Origin: Sabellastarte sp. h YS-2021
Taxonomy: Eukaryota > Annelida > Polychaeta > Sabellida > Sabellidae
Direction of reading: 5' to 3'
NCBI GenBank assembly: GCA_964017235.1
Contig: OZ024927.1
Span: 44,769,293 to 44,833,292 of the forward strand
DNA length: 64,000 nucleotides
The position numbers and the translations under genes were made by a program. Shown here in pieces: positions 701 through 64,000 of the stretch. The notes beneath the pieces are model-generated. The model made no database searches. It worked only from the letters and a program-made list of their open reading frames with translations, and was not told where the DNA came from. Each line of letters starts with the position of its first letter. Positions within the stretch are counted from its first letter, which is position 1.

Positions 701-17445
<16,745 letters not shown>

Positions 17446-39335: not shown

Positions 39336-39404
39336 TCAGTTTAAAATGCCCCCCCCCCCCCCCCCTTTTCAATTAAGAAAAGACAGAAACGTATTTAAAT
39401 CATT

Positions 39405-39930
39405 GCGATGGCAACACGTGTTGCCAGATACCCTCCAAAACCTACTCAGCTCTAGTTCCGGTTTTGGTTAACATATCCTGAAAATGTGGTGAAAATCCAT
39501 GCATTGGTTTAGGCTGTGGAACACCCACAAACTTTAAGACCCCAAAATCTTAAAACTGTTGCCATGGAATCATTTGCTATCAGATACTCCCCAAACCCTG
39601 AACAACTCTAGATCCTTTTGGGGTAAACATACTCTGAAAATTTGGTGAAAATCTGTGAATGGGTTTTGGCTGTGGAACACCCACAAAATTTAAGACCCCA
39701 AAATTTTAAAAGTGTTGCCATGGCAACAGTTGTTACTGGATACCCTCAAAACCTAATCAACTCTAGATCCTCTTGGGGTAAACATACTCTGAAAATCTGT
39801 GCATGGGTTTTGGCTGTGGAACAACCAAAAAATTTAAGACCCCAAAATTTAAAAAGTGTTGCCATAGCAACAGTTGTTGCCCGATACCCCCAAAAACCTA
39901 ATCACCTCTTGGGGTAAACATATCCTGAAA
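39405..39930. repeat. four ~150-bp degenerate tandem units
   Basis: Units share TTGCCATGGCAACAGTTGTT-like starts, GATACCC(T/C)CAAAACC, CTCTAGATCC, GGGGTAAACATA, ATGGGTTTTGGCTGTGGAAC and AAGACCCCAAAAT. They begin near 39405, 39560, 39715 and 39855. The first contains the perfect palindrome GGCAACACGTGTTGCC. Confidence 0.7.
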
Positions 39931-40299: not shown

Positions 40300-41150
40300 A
40301 AATATGGCAGGTGAACACACATTGGCAGAGCAAAGAGGTCACATCATGTTGCACACCTATACCTCCAACCAATGTCCCAAGTGTCAATCTTCTACACCTT
40401 ATGGAATCCAAGAAATAGTCTGGACAAGATTTTCAAACTCATGGTCACTATGACAAGGTCAAAGGTCAAATCAAGGTCTCACCATGACGTTGCACACCTA
40501 CAACCCCGATCAATGTCCCTACTAATTATCAACTTCCTACACCTTATGGTTTCCGAGATATAGCCCAGACAAGATTTTATAAGTGAAGGTCACTATGGCG
40601 AGGTTAAAGGTCAAATAAAGGTCACACCATAAAGTTCCACACCTACAACCCCAACCAATGTCCCTACCAAGTATCAACCTCCTACACTTTACTGTTTCCA
40701 AGATATAACCCGGATAAGATTTTACATCAATGTCAAATCAAGGTCACATTAGGACGTTGCACACCTACACCCCCCTAACCAATGTCCCTACCAAGTATCA
40801 ATTTCCTACACCATATGGTTTCTGGGATATAGCTGAGACAGGATTTTATAGATCAAAGTCATTACAGCAATTTTAAAGGTCAACTCAAGGTCACACCATG
40901 ACGTTGCATACCTACACCCCCTAACCAATGTCTATCTGTCAAGTAACAACTTCCTACACCTTACGGTTTCCAAGATATAGCCCAGACAAGATTTAGTAGG
41001 TCAAGGTCACTATGGCAAGGTTAAAGGTCAAATCAAGGTCACACCATGATGTAGTACACCTACAGCCCCTCACCAATGTCCCTACCAAGTATCAACTTCC
41101 TACACCTTATGGTTTCTGAGATACAGCCCGGACAAACTTCTCCTGCCACC
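40300..41150. repeat. six ~140-150-bp tandem units rich in AGGTCA
   Basis: Each unit has GTTGCACACCTACA, CCAATGTCCCTACCAAGTAT, CTACACCTTATGGTTTC, GATATAGCCCAGACAAGATT and AAAGGTCAAATCAAGGTCAC. The last ends in a G/C-rich coda (CACCCACCCAAATGCCCG). Divergence among units suggests age. Confidence 0.75.
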
Positions 41151-49504: not shown

Positions 49505-52500
49505 CATGCCTTTTTGCATTGGTTGGGTTGAAAATTTTGACGAAATCACTCTATCTTGCACGGTTAAGAAGATAGAAGCCAATTCCTGTTTTTCTATTTT
49601 TGGCAAAAATTTGAAAATTCAAAATGGCCGCCATTATTGGGAAAAGGAAATTTTTTTGAAAATTGCCAAGAGTACATTTCTTAGATACCCTATGGGTCGA
49701 AAATTTCAACAAAATAACTCTATTTTGCACGGTTAAGGCCAGTTTGTGTTTTTCCATTTTGGGCAAAAATTCGAAAATTCAAAATGGCTGCCATTTTTGG
49801 GGAGGGGAAAATTTTTTGAAAATTGCAGATTACATTCCTTAGATACCCTGTGGGTTGAAAATTTCGACGAAATCGCTCTATCTCGCATGGTTAAGGAGAT
49901 AGAAGCAAATTTGTGTTTTGCCATTTTTGGCAAAAATTTGAAAATTCAAAATGGCCGCCATTTTAGGGGAGGGGAAAATTTTTTAGAAATTACCAAGAGT
50001 ACAATGCTCAGATACCCTGTGGGTCGAAAATTTTGACGAAATCACTCTATCTCGCACGGTTAAGGAGATAGAAGCAAATTTGTGTTTTGCCATTTTTGGC
50101 AAAAATTCGAAAATTCAAAATGGCCGCCATTTTTGGGGAGGGGAAAATTTTTGGAAAATTGCAAAGATTGCATTCCTTAGATACCCTGTGGGTCGAAAAT
50201 TTCGACGAAATCGCTCTATCTCGCACGGTTAAGGAGATAGAAGCAAATTTGTGTTTTGCCATTTTTGGCAAAAATTCGAAAATTCAAAATGGCCGCCATT
50301 TTTGGGGAGGGGAAAATTTTTTGAAAATTGCAAATATTACATTCCTTAGATACCCTGTGGGTCGAAAATTTCGATGAAATCGCTCTATCTCGCACGGTTA
50401 AGGAGATAGAAGCAAATTTGTGTTTTGCCATTTTTGGCAAAAATTCGAAAATTCAAAATGGCCGCCATTTTTGGGGAGGGGAAAATTTTTGGAAAATTGC
50501 AAAGATTGCATTCCTTAGATACCCTGTGGGTCGAAAATTTCGACGAAATCGCTCTATCTCGCACGGTTAAGGAGATAGAAGCAAATTTGTGTTTTGCAAT
50601 TTTTGGCAAAAATTCGAAAATTCAAAATGGCCGCCATTTTTGGGGAGGGGAAAATTTTTTGAAAATTGCAAAGATTACATTCCTTAGATACCCTGTGGGT
50701 CGAAAATTTCGACGAAATCGCTCTATCTCGCACGGTTAAGGAGATAGAAGCAAATTTGTGTTTTGCCATTTTTGGCAAAAATTCGAAAATTCAAAATGGC
50801 CGCCATTTTTGGGGAGGGGAAAATATTTTGAAAATTGCAAAGATTGCATTGCTTAGATACCCTGTGCGTCGAAAATTTTGCCGAAATCGCTCTATCTCGC
50901 ACGGTTAAGGAGATAGAAGCAAATTTGTGTTTTGCCATTTTTGGCAAAAATTCGAAAATTCAAAATGGCCGCCATTTTTGGGGAGGGGAAATTTTTTTGA
51001 AAATTGCAAATATTACATTCCTTAGATACCCTGTGGGTCGAAAATTTCGACGAAATCGCTCTATCTCGCACGGTTAAGGAGATAGAAGCAAATTTGTGTT
51101 TTGCCATTTTTGGCAAAAATTCGAAAATTCAAAATGGCCGCCATTTTTGGGGAGGGGAAAATATTTTGAAAATTGCAAAGATTGCATTGGTTAGATACCC
51201 TGTGTGTCGAAAATTTTGCCGAAATCGCTCTATCTCGCACGGTTAAGGAGATAGAAGCAAATTTGTGTTTTCCCATTTTTGGCAAAAATTCGAAAATTCA
51301 AAATGGCCGCCATTTTTGGGGAGGGGAAAATTTTTTGAAAATTGCAAAGATTGCATTCCTTAGATACCCTGTGGGTCGAAAATTTCGACGAAATCGCTCT
51401 ATCTCGCACGGTTAAGGAGATAGAAGCAAATTTGTGTTTTGCCATTTTTGGCAAAAATTCGAAAATTCAAAATGGCCGCCATTTTTGGGGAGGGGAAAAT
51501 ATTTTGAAAATTGCAAAGATTGCATTGCTTAGATACCCTGTGCCTCTAAAATTTTGCCGAAATCGCTCTATCTCGCACGGTTAAGGAGATAGAAGCAAAT
51601 TAGTGTTTTGCCATTTTTGGCAAAAATTCGAAAATTCAAAATGGCCGCCATTTTTGGGGAGGGGAAAATTTTTGGAAAATTGCAAAGATTGCATTCCTTA
51701 GATCCCCTGTGGGTCGAAAATTTTGCCGAAATCGCTCTATCTCGCACGGTTAAGGAGATAGAAGCAAATTTGTGTTTTGCCATTTTTGGCAAAAATTCGA
51801 AAATTCAAAATGGCCGCCATTTTTGGGGAGGGGAAATTTTTTTGAAAATTGCAAATATTACATTCCTTAGATACCCTGTGGGTCGAAAATTTCGACGAAA
51901 TCGCTCTATCTCGCACGGTTAAGGAGATAGAAGCAAATTTGTGTTTTGCCATTTTTGGCAAAAATTCGAAAATTCAAAATGGCCGCCATTTTTGGGGAGG
52001 GGAAAATTTTTGGAAAATTGCAAAGATTGCATTCCTTAGATACCCTGTGGGTCGAAAATTTCGACGAAATCGCTCTATCTCGCACGGTTAAGGAGATAGA
52101 AGCAAATTTGTGTTTTGCCATTTTTGGCAAAAATTCGAAAATTCAAAATGGCCGCCATTTTTGGGGAGGGGAAAATTTTTTGAAAATTGCAAAGATTACA
52201 TTCCTTAGATACCCTGTGGGTCGAAAATTTCGACGAAATCGCTCTATCTCGCACGGTTAAGGAGATAGAAGCAAATTTGTGTTTTGCCATTTTTGGCAAA
52301 AATTCAAAATGGCCGCCATTTTTGGGGAGGGGAAAATATTTTGAAAATTGCAAAGATTGCATTGCTTAGATACCCTGTGTGTCGAAAATTTTGCCGAAAT
52401 CGCTCTATCTCGCACGGTTAAGGAGATAGAAGCAAATTAGTGTTTTGCCATTTTTGGCAAAAATTCGAAAATTCAAAATGGCCGCCATTTTTGGGGAGGG

Positions 52501-52945
52501 GAAAATTTTTGGAAAATTGCAAAGATTGCATTCCTTAGATCCCCTGTGGGTCGAAAATTTTGCCGAAATCGCTCTATCTCGCACGGTTAAGGAGATAGAA
52601 GCAAATTTGTGTTTTGCCATTTTTGGCAAAAATTCGAAAATTCAAAATGGCCGCCATTTTTGGGGAGGGGAAATTTTTTTGAAAATTGCAAATATTACAT
52701 TCCTTAGATACCCTGTGGGTCGAAAATTTCGACGAAATCGCTCTATCTCGCACGGTTAAGGAGATAGAAGCAAATTTGTGTTTTGCCATTTTTGGCAAAA
52801 ATTCGAAAATTCAAAATGGCCGCCATTTTTGGGGAGGGGAAAATTTTTTTGAAAATTGCAAATATTACACTCCTCAGATACCCTGCGGGTCGAAAATTTT
52901 GCCGAAATCGCTCTATCTCGCACGGTTAAGGAGATAGAAGCAAAT
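49505..52945. repeat. ~169-bp satellite array (about 20 units)
   Basis: Near-identical units containing TTTGCCATTTTTGGCAAA and AAAATGGCCGCCATTTTTGG, CCTTAGATACCCTGTGGGTC, GAAAATTTCGACGAAATCGC and GCACGGTTAAGGAGATAGAA. The first three to four units (to about 50040) are more diverged. One unit near 52295-52310 lacks about 9 bp. A block starting about 51568 recurs at 52405 (837 bp apart, five units less that deletion). Open frames on both strands are periodic artefacts of a 169-bp unit (169 is not a multiple of three). Confidence 0.97.
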
Positions 52946-53371
52946 TACTCAAAAGTAGTACTGAAAATACACAATGAAGTACCTAAATGGCTATTACTCA
53001 TGTACTGACAAAGCTATCAGTCCCAAATGCAATACCAAGCGAGCTATGGACATAACAATCTTGTATTCAAAATTGTAGTAAAATATCTTTAATTATTTTG
53101 GCTTAAATGCACGGAAACCAATGGGTACTGAAAATAGCTGTACTTAAGTATTACTCAGTAAGCAAAAGAGGTACAACAGCCAAAAGCAATCCCAAGCAAG
53201 CTACTGACCCAATAAGCCTGCATACCAAATTTGGTGACAATAGCTCTAATACTTTTCCTTTAAATGAGCGGAAACCATGCGTGACGCCGGACATCGGACG
53301 CCGGACAACGGACATCGGACGGCGAAAAAAGCAAAAATAATATATCCACCCCCCAGGGGGGTGGACATAAT
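52946..53371. mobile_element. tail of the element carrying the 169-bp satellite, with terminal hairpin
   Basis: After the array come two related segments (CACAATGAAGTAC.. and AACCAATGGGTACTG.., about 130 bp each), a microsatellite-like GACGCCGGACATCGG series (53281-53322) and a near-perfect hairpin at 53345-53365 (TCCACCCCCC / GGGGGGTGGA). This satellite-then-hairpin order parallels the 146-bp elements. Confidence 0.6.
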
Positions 53372-53923: not shown

Positions 53924-55735
53924 CTAGCGCATCGGAAAACCGATGCAAATTGTATCCACCGTAAAACAATGCACCAAAACCTCTAGGACCAATAATAAGC
54001 AAGTTATAAGCACGTTTAAGTTTGGCTGTCCTCATTTGACCTTCAAGGAGGGGCCCAAGGTCAAATCTGACCACGCCAGAAGATTCCCAGCGCATGATTT
54101 CCTATATGTTAGTTTACCATCCCAAACCTCTAGGACCAATAATAAGCGAGTTATAAGCACTTTTAAGTTTGGCTGTCCTCATTTGACCTTGAACGAGGGG
54201 CCCAAGGTCAAATCCGACCACACCAGAAGATTCCCAGCCCATGATTTCCTATACTTTGGTTTACCATCCCAAACCTCTAGGACCAATAATAAGCGAGTTA
54301 TAAGCACTTTTACCTTTGGCTATCCTCATTTGACCTTCAAGGAGGGGACCAAGGTCAAATCCGACCACACCAGAAGATTCCCAGCCCATGATTTTCTATA
54401 TGCTGGTTTACCATCCCAAACATCTAGGACCAATAATAAGCGAGTTATAAGCACTTTTAAGTTTGGCTGTCCTCGTTTGACCTTGAATGAGGGGCCCAAG
54501 GTCAAATCCGACCACACCAGAAGATTCCCAGCCCATGATTTTCTATATGTTGGTTTACCATCCCAAACATCTAGGACCAATAATAAGTGAGTTATAAGTA
54601 CTTTTAAGTTTGGCTGTCCTCGTTTGACCTTGAATGAGGGGCCCAAGGTCAAATCCGACCACACCAGAAGATTCCCAGCCCATGATTTTCTATATGTTGG
54701 TTTACCATCCCAAATCTCTAGGACCAATAATAAGTGAGTTATAGGCACTTTTACCTTTGGCTATCCTTGTTTGACCTTGAAGGAGGGGCCCAAGGTCAAA
54801 TCCGACCACACCAAAAGATTCCCAGCCCATGATTTCCTATATGCTGGTTTACCATCCCAAACCTCTAGGACCAATAATAAGCGAGTTATAAGCACTTTTA
54901 TGTTTGGCTGTCCTCGTTTGACCTTGAATGAGGGGCCCAAGGTCAAATCCGACCACACCAGAAGATTCCCAGCCCATGATTTTCTATATGTTGGTTTACC
55001 ATCCCAAATCTCTAGGACCAATAATAAGTGAGTTATAGGCACTTTTACCTTTGGCTATCCTTGTTTGACCTTGAAGGAGGGGCCCAAGGTCAAATCCGAC
55101 CACACCAAAAGATTCCCAGCCCATGATTTCCTATATGCTGGTTTACCATCCCAAACCTCTAGGACCAATAATAAGCGAGTTATAAGCACTTTTATGTTTG
55201 GCTGTCCTCATTTGACTTTGAAGGAGGGGTCAAAGGTCAAATCTGACCACATCAGAAGATTCGCAGCACATGATTTCCTATAGGTTGGCTTCACATTGCA
55301 AACCTCTAGGACCAATAATAAGGGAGATATAGGCACTTTTAAAGTCCTCTATGTGGGTTACTTCGGCACTCTGTGGATGACCTTGAGTTAGGGATTTCAA
55401 GGTCAAATGTGTGCAAGGTTGTAGAGGACATTTATATGTGTCATACATATCACCTATGAAAATATTTAACCTTCTACCTATGAGGAACAGCCAGTAGAAA
55501 AATGTAGATTATTTTCAAAGAAATGCCTGTGGTGGCCATCTTGTTTTTCAGAATGAGGCCATTTTCCTTCCCAGAGAAGCTTACCCCCCAATGAAGATAT
55601 CCTGCAAATTTGTTGAACCTAGTTGATGTAGTTTTCTTCTTAGAGCGTTAACGCCGAAAATCTCTCTACGCGCGGCGGCGGCGTAGCGAACGCTAAACCA
55701 AAGTATCCACCAGATGCCTCCGGTGGATACAATTA
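53924..55735 (+). mobile_element. hairpin-ended element carrying the 146-bp satellite (right copy)
   Basis: 5' end: hairpin GCATCGG-AAAA-CCGATGC (53926-53943) followed by AAATTGTATCCACC. 3' end: hairpin GTATCCACC..GGTGGATAC (55703-55730) followed by AATT. The ends are thus inverted repeats of AATTGTATCCACC. Between lie about nine satellite units and a unique 3' part (55330-55700, with TCTCTCTACGCGCGGCGGCG near 55658). Structure recalls Helentron-associated/DINE-like elements; no autonomous partner is visible. Confidence 0.65.
53975..55330. repeat. 146-bp satellite, inverted orientation (about nine units)
   Basis: Reverse complement of the 6.7-13.5 kb monomer: CTCTAGGACCAATAATAAGC, GAGGGGCCCAAGGTCAAATC, GGTTTACCATCCCAAA. 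Adjacent units form a long open frame that is a repeat artefact. A 292-bp higher-order pattern is also seen (copies near 54771 and 55065). Confidence 0.95.
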
Positions 55736-58620: not shown

Positions 58621-58695
58621 TTACAAATCTGCCGCTCTGTACACTGCTGTTGTGTCATGTTCTCCGTACCCTTTTGCTTTCGCCTTTTTGAACAA
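58621..58695 (-). CDS. GLYR1: GLYR1-like terminal exon
   Basis: 25 codons including the stop: [20 protein letters not shown] then AADL and TAA. It follows acceptor GTTTCAG and continues ..SSVNE in frame; human GLYR1 has a VYKRAKALDQSDND-type counterpart, and AVYRA is the usual C-terminal motif. Too short for ORF detection. Confidence 0.85.
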   Translation of the reverse strand: MFKKAKAKGYGEHDTTAVYRAADL

Positions 58696-61600
58696 CTGAA
58701 ATGGAGATACAACTATTACACATCACTTCTGAACACACAGTAATAGGCTATTATGCATGGTCAGTTGGTGAAAGAAACCAGTCCAATTACTTCAATATAA
58801 CCCTGCTTTTTTTAAGCTGTTACAATGAATTCATAACAATTAGAGGATTTGTGAAATACAGAAAATACTGTACACTTTTATACTACTTAAGTGTAGTTTA
58901 AGCCATCTATGACAAACATTCTTAAAAAAGCCACTGCACTTTTGTACTTGCAATATTACTTTATGCCTGATGAACATAACCAACTGAACATGATATTATA
59001 ATTTATTATCCACTGCACGCCATACAGGGGAATATATGGAGTGGGATATAGTTATTTGTATACAATGGCGCCTCTGTACCATGGATAATTAGTGTCAATT
59101 ACTTCTGGTTTTTCACTAATATCTTGGAAACTATGCAACCTTCAAATATGTACGATATATCATTAGAAACATCTTTAAACAGCAAAAAAAAAATCCAAAC
59201 GGAAATGGCTAAAAAATCGCAAGTTAAATATGGAGGCTTTAAAATTCACTGGTGCCCCTGCATATATAGGTCAGCAATTTTCAAATTCTCTCTTTAGATA
59301 TGGATTTATTTTATTTATAAATCATGCAAAATAGTGGATAACAAAAGTAAAAATTCCCTCATTAGACATATACAGAAAAAATAGATCACTCGTGAAGATT
59401 AACAATAGAATACTCATGCTATGCACTCGTATAATATTATCTTCATTCGTGATATATTTTTTTCTGTATATGTCATTCGGGAAGTTTTGGTATTTTATAA
59501 ACATATACATTTTTTTTTAATTCCAGGGTTTCTTGGGGTTAAAAATTTTCTCATTTATCCGTGTGAAAGTTCAAGCGGAGACAGCAATAATGGAATCCAT
59601 CACAGTGTGATCAACAAGGGTGAATGTTGGTACTGTATTTAAGTAAGTGGTGTAGAAGAGTGCATTGTCGCTTTACTTTTAGCTAAAATATTAATCAAAA
59701 CTGCTCCCGGAAGGCATTGTCTGATAATAAATTTTCTCAATTAAATGGATCAAAACCACACAAGGTGACAGAATATTTCTGCTCTATCATTACAGCGAGT
59801 TAAAATGACAACACATCAGAACCTATTTTAAGTTGAAACCATTACATTACAGCTTTCACATGAAAAGCTTCTTATTTACTCAGAATTTCTACAATAAAGT
59901 AGAACCTCTTTTACCTGAACAATCTATTTTATGGACTTATTTCATCTACTCCTAAAATTACTTTTCTACTACTTCACACTGAATTTCTAAGTAGTCATTT
60001 TTGTACTAGTCAAAGTTGGGGTTTTACGTCCCGTTCAACAGCCAGGGTCATATCGGGACAGGTCCTCAGAATTGCCACTTGTGGGACTCGAACCCACAGA
60101 GGTGACAGCCTATGATTAGATGCCAAACTTGCTAACCACTAGGCCACTGAGGACCTATTTTTGTACTCTACATGTACTAGAGTAATACTATTTACTCACC
60201 TCGTTGACTGAAGATCCCACATGTAGAGGCTGGTCCACTGAGTCTGACATGTTGACAGCCAACCGCAGATCCTTCTGCATCACTTGCAGCTTGCTGTTTG
60301 GATCATTGTAGTTACTCTGCAGCATGTCTGAAACACACAAACATGGTGATATGACTGTGGAAAACGTTCGACCGAAGCTTTCTATTTTTAATTTGGGCCA
60401 ACATAAACAGAATACAGCTCTATACCTGTACCACAGGAATAGGTCACGCAACAAGTAAACCTTCAGGTCACTTCAATACAGATTTACTTCTGGTTTAACA
60501 TGACTTTAAAAATGTACAACTCATATCGGTAGGGAGTTGGAGGAGGATGAAATTATTTTGGTAATCACTTGCCAACTTTTCTACTTAAAGAAAAAAATAA
60601 GATTGGTTACCACAACCTCACACATGGGAGACAAGTGTGTTGCCTATAGAGGCCCAAGTCAGTAACACAGAAATAGAGGAACGGAACAAACACATGAGTT
60701 ATATGTTGTTCTGATTATATGATGACAGGCCCCTCTCATATTGCTATGAGCTATGCACCACAGCAGAAATATCTTTATGCTCAAAAAAGAGTACAAAACA
60801 ATGCAGCTAGTCTCTATCTAAATGTAAACCACTTTCCTGTTCCAGGCAGCTAAAGGTTTATAGAAGACTATGGATTTATTACTGTTACCTAGCTGATACA
60901 TCATGGGACTGTATATTGAGGTCCATTACTTACCATTGGCTCGCCAATGCATTGGGGGACTACAGATTCAGTTCCTAGCTGATGTGTGGGGATGTAAATT
61001 AAGTTACTGACCAGTTCATCATGGAACTATACAGGTATTTAGTTTCACTAATTTACTGTTGATTAGTCGTTGCATTATAAGACTGTGGATTTATTTTTAA
61101 GCTGATATATCATAGGATTGTAGATGTAGTTCCACTACTTACCGTTGGCTTAGCAAAACCATCAAAAGATTGTAGATTTAGTTCCATTATTTATCACTGG
61201 CTAGCCAGTGTATCATGGGAGTATAAACTTAGTTCCATGACTTACTTTTGGCTAGCCAGTGTACTATAAGAATGTAGATTGGTTCCACTACTTGCTGTTG
61301 GCTGGCTTGTACATCATAAGACTGTAGATTTATTTCCTAGCCAATATATGTCATGGTGATGTAGATTTAGTTGTATTACTTGCCGTTGGCTAGCCAGTGC
61401 ATCATAAGACTGTAGATTCATCTTCTAGCCAATATATCATGGTGATGTAGATTTTGTTTCATTATGTTCTGCTGGCTAGCCAGTGCATTACTACACTGGT
61501 AGATTTAGTTCCATTATGTAATGTTGGCTGATCAGTGCATGATAGAACTGTAGATTTAGTTCTATCACTTACAATTGGCTAGCCAGTGTATCATGGGACT

Positions 61601-63758
61601 GAAGGTTTACTTCAAATACTTACTGTTGGCTAGCCTATAGATCATGGGACTGTAGATTTAATTCCATTACATTCAATTGGCTAGCCAGTGCATAAGAAGA
61701 CTGTAGATTTAGTTCCCCTACTTACCATTGGCTAGCCGGTGCATCATGGGACTATAGATTGGATGCATACTGAGGATCTGTAGGAGTTCGTCGGTGTCCA
61801 GTCCCACCTTCTCTGCGAGGGCAAGGCTTTCAGCCAGTCCCGCAATCACGCTGCCTGTTAAAAGTTGCAGCACCAACTTCACCTTGGATGCACTGCCTAT
61901 TTCACCTGAAATATGTGTGCATTTACAATTTAAAATCTGGTTTTATGTATTTTTGATTTGATTTGATTTTAACTTAATTTTTTTCAACACTTTCTGAAGA
62001 GAGATTGATTAGTTAAAACCCCATTCACACTACAAGCAGTATCGCCCGCGGGAACCCTCGTCTGGTGAAACGTCTATGTCCTTGGATCACCATCTGACGT
62101 TCGTATGCAACCTTAGGAGTCAGTGGTGAACCGTCCATTACCTTGCGAGTCCCACGATGTTTTCAAAAGTTTCAAATTTCCGCCTCTGATTTCATTACCA
62201 TGAGCATGCACAGATAATTTCGCACATGCGTGTATGAGTTTCTGACTATGGTAACCAAAAGTGTAGTCTACAGTGTACATAAGGTTGGGATTCGGTCGTC
62301 TTTCGATGTAATACAGCAACGTAAGGTGAGTTAAGGTATTTGTCATTTCGCCATGTGTTGGTAAGACAGCTACTGAAGGGGAGTTGAAGTTAATTGAGGT
62401 TGTCTTTTGGTGACCAATGTTTGTGGTACTGTCATCCGACTGTTATTTACGGTTAAAAAACCGTGTCCAATCAGTGGTTGTCCGCCTGTAGTGTGAACAA
62501 CTTGGAGCAAAAGGGGCGACCTCTAACCGTGGGACATACTGCCTACACAGAAATTCAAGATGGCCGTCAAAAATGGCGGGAAAACGATTTTTGGGCAAAG
62601 TCGCCAGTACACTCTGCAGATACCCCGGGGGTCAAAAATTTCGTTGAAAACGCTCCATCTCACTCCGTTTCCCAGATAAATACGTTTTTGCGTTTTACAC
62701 AGAAATTCACGATGGCCGCCAAAAATTGCAGGAAAATAATTTTTGCGAAAAGTTGCCAGTACACCGTGTAGATATATAGTGAGTCAAAAATTTCATCGAA
62801 ATTGCTCTACCGCTAAGGTTTTTTATTTTTGGCATTAAGAAAAATCATTAATTAAGTTAAATTAGTTAATCATTAATAAGTCGGCCATTTTGTATTGGAT
62901 CACTTCCAAAAGTTAATGATTTCAAGATATCTATATAACGAACCTATTTGCCGAATTTCATGTAAATAGGTAAAGTGCTTTTTAAGTTATCATCCGGACA
63001 AGCATACCCCTTTCAAAAACATGTTTTCAGTCATGTGACTTCTATGACTGGTTGAAATGTCATGGCACCATATTCAGAAATTTTTCCCAGGGTCACTGCA
63101 TACATAGGCTAAATTTGAAGAGAATCCGCCCAGTAGTTGCTGAGTAATAAGCAATAGAAAATGCAGGAGATGGCAGACCCACCCTCACTCCCCTTTCCCC
63201 TAAAAAGAAACAAAATTACTTTGGGGGAACCTTAATAATAGGATCAACAAGGGAACTTGATATAGTTTTTATTGTTACAAGGTCTATTTCTCACCATTAT
63301 CTAAAATGACATTGACATATTCTGGACTTCTGATATTATACAAGGATAAGAAACCTATACAATTTTTTATAGATCACAGTAAATTTATGAAAAATGAAAA
63401 AATTCTGCGATGGAACTGAGACTTCAGTTATCCATTTGACGAATAACTTTACAAGTACAAAAATAGAGGAGAACCAAACTTCAGGTGTTCTTTGTATACT
63501 TACAAAACCTTTGACATTTTTCGACAACTGCTGATATATTTGTGATAATATATACTGATATACACTGTTAAAGACAACTCCTCATAGTCTCATACCCAAG
63601 TAAAATGTCTTCTTTCCCATGGCTGCAAAACATGAGTAGCAGTCTTCATAGAGACTGTGGTCCCCTGAGGCCAAAATGACTAAGGAGCCTTCACGTGCTG
63701 GGCCTTTAGTTCCAATGACTGGAGCCTCCAAAAAGCGACCTCCTCGTGCCATTATCGC
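58621..63758 (-). CDS. GLYR1: GLYR1/N-PAC-like beta-hydroxyacid dehydrogenase gene, 3' part (5' end outside window)
   Basis: Exons seen: 63596-63758, 61726-61906, 60200-60327 and 58621-58695 (stop). They encode the second half of the dehydrogenase: the substrate-binding end of the Rossmann domain and the all-helical NAD-binding-11 domain. Signatures are [57 protein letters not shown] and AVYRAADL at the C-terminus, each close to human GLYR1 (from memory). In vertebrates GLYR1 is a nucleosome-binding co-factor with a PWWP domain; that region would lie to the right, outside the window, so a plain dehydrogenase paralogue is possible. SKVKLV has Lys where human GLYR1 lacks the catalytic Lys. One extra T at 61856-61865 breaks frame in exon 61726-61906. 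Confidence 0.85.
59362..59480. repeat. foldback hairpin of about 120 bp
   Basis: GACATATACAGAAAAAATAG at the left is mirrored by TTTTTTCTGTATATGTC at the right, with mirrored CTCGTGAAGATT/ATCTTCATTCGTG. The centre (CTCATGCTATGCACTCGTAT) also occurs at about 17952-17975, so this is one copy of a dispersed small element. Confidence 0.6.
60012..60155 (-). mobile_element. tRNA-derived SINE, well preserved
   Basis: Minus strand: GTGGCCTAGTGGTTAGCAAG (A box) and GGGTTCGAGTCCC (B box, a perfect pol III match), body CTGAGGACCTGTCCCGATAT, tail GAACGGGACGTAAAACCCC. The tail resembles those of other mollusc SINEs (from memory). Not a tRNA gene: no acceptor stem pairing or intact anticodon arm is apparent. 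Confidence 0.8.
60200..60327 (-). CDS. GLYR1: GLYR1-like exon (MQKDLRLAV block)
   Basis: 128 nt: completes Asp across the splice, then [20 protein letters not shown] to HVGSSVNE. Acceptor TGTGTTTCAG, donor GTGAGTAAA. QKDLRLA is a hallmark of the family's C-terminal helical domain. Ends in phase 0, matching the last exon. Confidence 0.88.
60880..61725 (-). repeat. 51-bp tandem array derived from an exon end plus its splice donor
   Basis: About 14 units; the five on the exon side are spaced exactly 51 bp (GGCTAGCC or its variant at 61526, 61577, 61628, 61679 and the exon copy at 61730). On the minus strand a unit reads AGTCCCATGATGCACTGGCT AGCCAAnn GTAAGT..GGAACTAAATCTAC. The first part is the coding end of exon 61726-61906, the second its donor and first intron bases. 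At least five copies besides the real site keep GTAAGT (60928-60933, 61137-61142, 61240-61245, 61567-61572, 61618-61623); two more have GCAAGT. Confidence 0.9.
61726..61906 (-). CDS. GLYR1: GLYR1-like exon ([11 protein letters not shown] block), frameshifted by one T
   Basis: Acceptor TATTTCAG, donor GTAAGTAG. Encodes [15 protein letters not shown], then, one base out of phase, [20 protein letters not shown] and [14 protein letters not shown]. Flanking exon phases require 180 nt here; the exon has 181, the extra base lying in a run of five T (minus strand). Read literally it meets a stop within about 14 codons. The last 28 nt plus the donor are the seed of the tandem array at 60880-61720. Confidence 0.82.
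62020..62492. mobile_element. MITE with TTCACACTACA termini
   Basis: Left end TTCACACTACAAGCAG (about 62026) and right end complement CTGTAGTGTGAA (about 62489). Non-coding, no transposase. Lies in a GLYR1-like intron. The target duplication is not clear. Confidence 0.6.
62530..62830. repeat. two diverged relatives of the 169-bp satellite
   Basis: Two units of about 155 bp share with the 49.5-52.9 kb array, in the same order: AGAAATTCA(A/C)GATGGCCG, a GAAAA..TTTTTG segment, AGTACAC then AGATA, GTCAAAAATTTC(G/A)T, and CGCTCCATCTC. Too diverged to be recent copies. Confidence 0.65.
62831..63595. other. GLYR1-like intron remainder
   Basis: AT-rich. 62880-63190 resembles a dispersed invertebrate repeat (GAATCCGCCCAGTAGTTGCT) but I cannot name it. 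No gene. Confidence 0.45.
63596..63758 (-). CDS. GLYR1: GLYR1-like exon ([10 protein letters not shown] block)
   Basis: 163 nt, [20 protein letters not shown] to MGKKTFYLG. Acceptor AACTTTCAG at the right, donor GTATGAG at the left. The LEAPVIG segment is the conserved substrate-side strand of the family (usually EAPVSG). Phase 0 to phase 1. The intron to its right (63759-64000) shows no further exon that I can support. Confidence 0.88.
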
Positions 63759-64000
63759 CTGAAAGTTGACATGAAAACTGTAATTATCACTCCCAAGCTA
63801 GTGTAAAAACTATGATATAAATTTTTAAAGAATCGCAGATAAGACCTATTAGGCAAGTTCCATTTCTATTTTATGACTTACAATTTTCAACTATATGATA
63901 CAATTTAAAAGGGAAATTTGGCTCCCAAGAAGTGATACCATCACACATGATAGCCTGCAAGAAAAAAATACAGCAATCTCCTACAAAAAGACACAAATTT

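Follow-up and report, generated by a model that had tools for sequence, protein, structure and literature searches.

An intronic tandem array of exon-end and splice-donor copies in a GLYR1-like gene, probably the decayed leftovers of an old minisatellite

When an intron opens on one good splice donor and then presents several more, does splicing keep to the first? The question is raised by a GLYR1-like gene in the window (the whole stretch of 64,000 nucleotides analysed here), one intron of which is lined with copies of its own 5' boundary. The array amounts to a natural test of spliceosome fidelity to one donor with several good ones following within 800 bp. If the decoys are used, they would represent a simple evolved route toward poison-exon-like regulation, and if they are not, exon-proximal donor choice would appear to be robust.

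The host is apparently an intact beta-hydroxyacid dehydrogenase gene (N-PAC/GLYR1-like). Its coding exons in the window are as follows.

63594 to 63761, minus strand: upstream coding exon, end of NAD_binding_2 (family-match coordinates, not exact splice sites)
61726 to 61905, minus strand: exon of 180 nt, with its last 35 nt (61760-61726) forming the exonic share of the repeat unit (CAG acceptor with its end at 61906, 61725 donor, PF14833, PDB homologues)
60200 to 60327, minus strand: next coding exon, 128 nt (protein homology, acceptor, open frame)
58621 to 58695, minus strand: last coding exon, 24 residues and a stop (missed by motif searches and found by reading the sequence; open frame)

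The exon at 61726 to 61905 matches NAD_binding_11 (PF14833) and the upstream exon matches the end of NAD_binding_2 (PF03446), both above cut-off, as is expected for a dehydrogenase domain of the beta-hydroxyacid family such as GLYR1 / N-PAC has. The top solved relatives are 3pdu and 3pef, which are 3-hydroxyisobutyrate-dehydrogenase-like, and N-PAC itself comes next (2uyy, E 6.9e-14). True GLYR1 / N-PAC has an N-terminal PWWP domain, and GLYR1-like is a fair label for a gene recognised by its dehydrogenase domain alone. The first 39 positions of PF03446 match C1:44873915-44874031, which has the same orientation and lies some 41 kb beyond the window's upstream exon in the upstream direction, and a weak match to positions 33-76 (E 7.9) lies between the two; we infer that both far-upstream matches belong to the host gene. 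At the other end, the joined frame through 60327-60200 and 58695-58621 stays open as far as the stop that follows AVYRAADL. A PF14833 profile search of the genome gave two matches at the locus and two on another contig, C21, where the profile ranges suggest different exon boundaries. No processed copy and no close paralogue recording the junction was found, as the two matches obtained were both host-gene exons. An Rfam scan and a tRNA scan of the window (ARAGORN, bacterial setting) gave 0 matches each. On the minus strand just inside the next intron, a tRNA-derived SINE-like stretch was seen at 60010-60183 (TAGTGGTTAGCA ... GGTTCGAGTCCC, which we take to be tRNA-derived SINE motifs).

The array, the splice signals and the stop codon on which the argument turns are listed here.

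60876 to 61760, minus strand: tandem array with a unit of exon end, donor and intron (Tandem Repeats Finder and wraparound alignment)
61720 to 61725, minus strand: presumed real 5' splice site GTAAGT, context AATG/GTAAGTAGGGG (homology continues over the junction)
61718 to 61720, minus strand: in-frame TAG, met on any read-through of the real donor (frame reading)
61618 to 61623, minus strand: decoy GTAAGT, context ACA/ (motif and donor score)
61567 to 61572, minus strand: decoy GTAAGT, context ATT/ (motif and donor score)
61378 to 61383, minus strand: GCAAGT copy (motif)
61290 to 61295, minus strand: GCAAGT copy (motif)
61240 to 61245, minus strand: decoy GTAAGT, context AAA/ (motif and donor score)
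61137 to 61142, minus strand: decoy GTAAGT, context ACG/, with U1 pairing that matches the real site (motif and U1 pairing)
60928 to 60933, minus strand: farthest decoy GTAAGT, context ATG/, with U1 pairing that matches the real site (motif and U1 pairing)

Read on the minus strand, the 51-bp unit consists of the last 35 exon bases, the GTAAGT donor and 10 further intron bases. A first-pass annotation had described the unit as a copy of the exon-intron boundary with about 28 exon bases; the copying is borne out by the wraparound alignment, which runs into the exon end with 33 of 35 bases identical to the unit, and the figure of 28 gives way to 35. The exon (61905-61726) ends in AATCTATAGTCCCATGATGCACCGGCTAGCCAATG; the bases after it, GTAAGTAGGGGAACTAAATCTACAGTC, are already the start of the next copy. 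Aligned to the 51-bp unit, the array is unbroken from 61760 to 60876: after the exon end come 17 rows, and then a stub of 7 bases, so that the earlier count of about 14 copies was correct in unit length and too low in number, about 17 following the exon end. Row 1 starts with the real donor, leaving 16 decoy donor rows and the stub. Every row count is based on this single wraparound alignment, in which rows 61056 and 60993 are unsure, needing 12 and 9 inserted bases, respectively. Tandem Repeats Finder reports 61473-61760 (period 51, 5.6 copies) and 61272-61512 (period 88, 2.8 copies), the second period probably because several rows have deletions (61469, 61425, 61383, 61341, 61142, and 61099).

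As a repeat, the array is far above chance expectation. Donor-like 9-mers were scored by a donor matrix, with cut-offs of at least 6.9 and at least 9. At the lower cut-off the array holds 5, where the mean per 860 bp is 0.94, and the window's densest 860-bp stretches (8) overlap the array region while one place elsewhere also reaches 5; at the higher cut-off the array holds 3, as does one other place in the window. What distinguishes the array is its periodicity and its exon identity, not its donor count.

Other tandem repeats were also observed in the window. A satellite of about 147 bp occupies 6701-13514 (overlapping period-147 rows, 8.4 and 44.5 copies) and 53977-55342 (9.3 copies), the consensus units of the two places being mutually reverse complement by eye. 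A separate 169-bp array lies at 49524-52946 (20.4 copies, 93% matches), and smaller arrays of 156 bp and about 145 bp lie at 39403-39909 (3.3 copies) and 40348-41135 (5.6 copies).

Either the repeat grew out of the exon end or the exon end was captured from the repeat, and both origins had been proposed. In the five PDB alignments shown, protein homology extends across both the repeat-like end of the exon and the 61726/60327 junction; the stretch is without a gap in three of them (2uyy N-PAC, 3doj, and 5je8), while the remaining two (3pdu and 3pef) have a gap of one residue within the exon end. The SPMM encoded in the repeat-like part is aligned with NPMF in 3pdu, 3pef, and 3doj. Copies of the unit elsewhere in the 1.79-Gb genome were also looked for, and matches were found only in this intron: among the matches listed, 7 of 7 and 2 of 2 in the unit searches are this locus, and a 31-base core with at most 3 mismatches matched three times, each time here, with 0 matches for its reversed control. 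As far as these searches reach, the array is confined to one intron, and a dispersed repeat is rejected for the unit on the matches listed and on the core search. It is most likely that the repeat grew from the exon, because homology crosses the exon end and junction and no copies were found elsewhere. Under the opposite course, an older intronic minisatellite would have given the gene its present exon end and donor after the original donor was lost. The 33/35 identity would fit such a capture, though identity alone has no direction, as would an exon end that is not strongly conserved among homologues and carries the one-residue gap in two of five alignments; the homology that still crosses exon end and junction, the SPMM facing NPMF in three of five, and the lack of unit copies elsewhere among the matches listed and in the core search make it highly unlikely. 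Growth from the exon end is favoured on homology.

The intron runs from the real donor at 61725 to an acceptor whose AG ends at 60328, as the first-pass annotation had it. Its five decoy GTAAGT (starts 61623, 61572, 61245, 61142, and 60933) and two GCAAGT (61383 and 61295) were all recovered, and they do form a row of donors, but the decoys cover about 790 bp (61725 to 60933) instead of 850 bp, and the 60928 assigned to the farthest site is the low end of a GTAAGT that starts at 60933. In principle, the decoys may be able to work as donors. The pairing energy with the U1 5' end is -10.7 kcal/mol at the real site, -10.9 at 61142 and -10.7 at 60933, with lesser values at 61623 (-7.5), 61572 and 61383 (both -6.2), 61245 (-5.6), and 61295 (-4.4). 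Use of these donors would lengthen the exon from 180 nt to 282 (61623), 333 (61572), 660 (61245), 763 (61142), or 972 nt (60933), and the GC copies would give 522 nt (61383) and 610 nt (61295). On general grounds, the real site should be favoured by proximity and exon definition, because the near decoys are weaker and use of the strong ones would make the exon unusually long. By reading, GGGG directly after the donor occurs in the real-donor row only, and although this is a single observation, it is possible that it acts as an intronic enhancer. Local folding predicts a different order: the real-site 9-mer has an unpaired probability of 0.003-0.019 over three settings and is less open in all three than 61623 (0.09-0.20), 61572, 61142, and both GC sites, and the 9-mer at 60933 is less open than the real site, yet its 6-mer is the most open of all (0.35-0.48).

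The frame GGT AAG TAG directly after the real donor was confirmed, with the stop at 61720-61718, and this TAG would be met with all seven decoy junctions, so the proposed consequence of decoy use, a premature stop, holds throughout. By the usual rule, a stop more than 50-55 nt before a junction suffices for NMD, and from the TAG to the seven decoy junctions the distances are 94 to 784 nt. It could be argued that real and decoy donors compete functionally and that their balance sets the level of productive mRNA through an NMD-coupled switch. Five perfect decoys, two of them equal to the real donor in U1 pairing, a stop placed far enough upstream for NMD, and a real donor predicted to be less accessible than several decoys are all in keeping with such a switch, and repeat donors are known to be used in IFI6 (excerpt of PMC4526556). 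However, splicing at the two strong decoys would call for exons as long as 763 and 972 nt, while the near ones (282 and 333 nt) pair more weakly (-7.5 and -6.2), and the history of the array bears on this reading as well.

Among the 17 rows, mean pairwise identity is 0.72 (range 0.58-0.86), corresponding to a Jukes-Cantor distance of 0.35 between rows and about 0.18 to a common source. Neutral rates run at 1-4 substitutions per site per billion years, and from this rate the depth of the array may be put, as a rough guide, at tens to more than 100 million years. Adjacent rows are 0.707 identical versus 0.718 in shuffled order, and lags 2 and 3 likewise have no excess. Rows at lag 4 are 0.746 identical (fraction 0.0076 against shuffles, as one of four lags and uncorrected), and this likeness points to some block duplication. 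The rows look like an expansion of old date, now decayed and largely frozen, perhaps with block duplication, and, in the one assembly, not like a currently variable array.

The donors have decayed with the rest. In a test that left out the real donor row and the 3 of 16 rows with gapped donors, and that excluded columns 27, 28, 49, and 50 from the base rates, the unit bases kept outside the donor were 0.90 of cells for A, 0.78 for C, 0.75 for G, and 0.92 for T. From this per-base decay, 5.04 intact GTAAGT are expected in 13 complete decoy rows and 5 are seen; donor cells are kept in 71 of 87 cases versus 74.4 expected (p = 0.29), and 6 of the 13 rows retain GT itself versus 9.0, below expectation. 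At least five intact copies of 16 are retained by 25 of the 51 six-base windows of the unit, GTAAGT among them. The decoys have no sign of preservation and their decay looks neutral, in a test that on 13 rows is blind to weak selection or to selection on one or two copies. Given a donor motif that decays as the rest of the unit does, a GT kept less often than expected and little sign of recent copy turnover, a switch is highly improbable. The copy-number-variable regulatory switch once suggested for this array is likewise not sustained, as the donors decay like the rest, the rows are diverged, and similar amphioxus arrays are reported without disturbance of splicing.

As a separate observation, it is AATCTACA and not the donor that has survived best in the unit, its six-base windows AATCTA, ATCTAC, and TCTACA being intact in 10 of 16 rows each. 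This retention is possibly due to A+T content, because A and T are better kept throughout the unit.

The exonic part of the unit includes a palindrome, GGCTAGCC, found eight times in the window, every time in the array (exon end included), and the array RNA folds better than shuffled sequences (z -4.16, with 0 of 20 shuffles as good). These two observations would suit a role in RNA structure: in many copies GGCTAGCC sits immediately 5' of the donor, and base-pairing of one copy with another would then mask or uncover splice sites. However, a tandemly repeated palindrome yields such folding without selection and the real site gains no predicted accessibility over most decoys, so we regard this role as very improbable. 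Units acting as microexons were also considered and are thought unlikely. Seven of the nine TA[C/T]AG sites in the array have 5-7 pyrimidines among the 16 upstream bases and two have 10, whereas three presumed true acceptors, which end in TTTCAG, have 7, 10, and 10; with overlapping counts, this comparison does not separate the two cleanly.

We conclude that the array is very probably an old intronic minisatellite of the type termed a mirage in amphioxus, formed by tandem duplication of a boundary segment and now reduced to decayed leftovers. A 51-bp segment of 35 exon-end bases, the donor and 10 intron bases would have been duplicated in tandem into the intron and expanded to about 17 copies, after which turnover would largely have ceased and point mutation and deletion would have set in. 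Splicing most likely still connects 61726 with 60327, since no donor is closer to the exon than 61725 and the protein read over this junction fits the family, and the other GTAAGT copies would be leftovers without function. Occasional decoy use would give a longer exon with an immediate TAG, and the transcript would be expected to be lost to NMD, as splicing noise and not regulation. Set against this leftover reading are the U1 pairing of 61142 and 60933, as good as that of the real site, the real site's lower predicted accessibility relative to several decoys, the folding z of -4.16, the lag-4 likeness, and the donor use known from the IFI6 repeat. A regulatory version, in which a mirage-type array, possibly outside lancelets, leads from every unit to the same stop and the number and strength of its decoys tune the share of transcripts passed to NMD, is distinctly unlikely. 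Two aspects may be new: the host, provided that it is no lancelet, and the fact that so decayed an array still has two decoys of full strength, although the neutral expectation already covers this second point.

Among open-licence papers, queries made without the gene name found no mention of the present array. The nearest known systems are the amphioxus mirages, described in excerpts of PMC3087553 as tandem repeats over exon-intron boundaries in the Adh3 and globin genes and in excerpts of PMC3902484 also for the troponin C and PGBD5 genes. Like these, the present array has a minisatellite-like unit of exon end, splice signal and adjoining intron, in the mirages at a 5' or 3' boundary (excerpts of PMC3087553 and PMC3902484): the 51-bp unit here spans the boundary, with 35 exon bases, the donor and the intron start. 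The unit length of 51 bp falls within the range covered by mirage units of 10-72 bp (Adh3) and 150-160 bp (globins) (same excerpts). Mirages have splice signals in many but not all repeats (excerpts of PMC3087553), and here GTAAGT is kept in 5 of 16 decoy rows and GCAAGT in 2 of 16. The units of the BflGb6 globin mirage are 81-100% identical (excerpts of PMC3087553 and PMC3902484), whereas the present rows average 72% identity and have no neighbour similarity. The same excerpts report that BflGb6 unit number varies between haplotypes, and the PGBD5 repeats are called imperfect (excerpt of PMC3902484). Adh3 data and globin RT-PCR suggest that regular splicing is undisturbed by the mirages (excerpts of PMC3087553 and PMC3902484), and in the authors' view the copies could act as cryptic sites or as sources of new introns (excerpt of PMC3087553).

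A related intron-gain model invokes duplicated segments holding AG/GT proto-splice sites (excerpt of PMC3087553); like it, the present locus has a tandemly duplicated piece with splice signals, and unlike it, the copies lie inside an existing intron, with no new exon or intron seen. Human IFI6 splices from two downstream units of its repeat (excerpt of PMC4526556). As in IFI6, tandem units here offer donors at an exon end, but the decoys of this array would lead straight to a stop, and at 12 bp the IFI6 unit is shorter than the 51 bp found here. Turri et al. reportedly described in 1995 (NAR 23:1854) that the IFI6 (6-16) minisatellite provides multiple splice donor sites. As both silent (mirages) and used (IFI6) arrays have been reported, both outcomes have precedent, and the present array may extend a repeat type described in lancelets.
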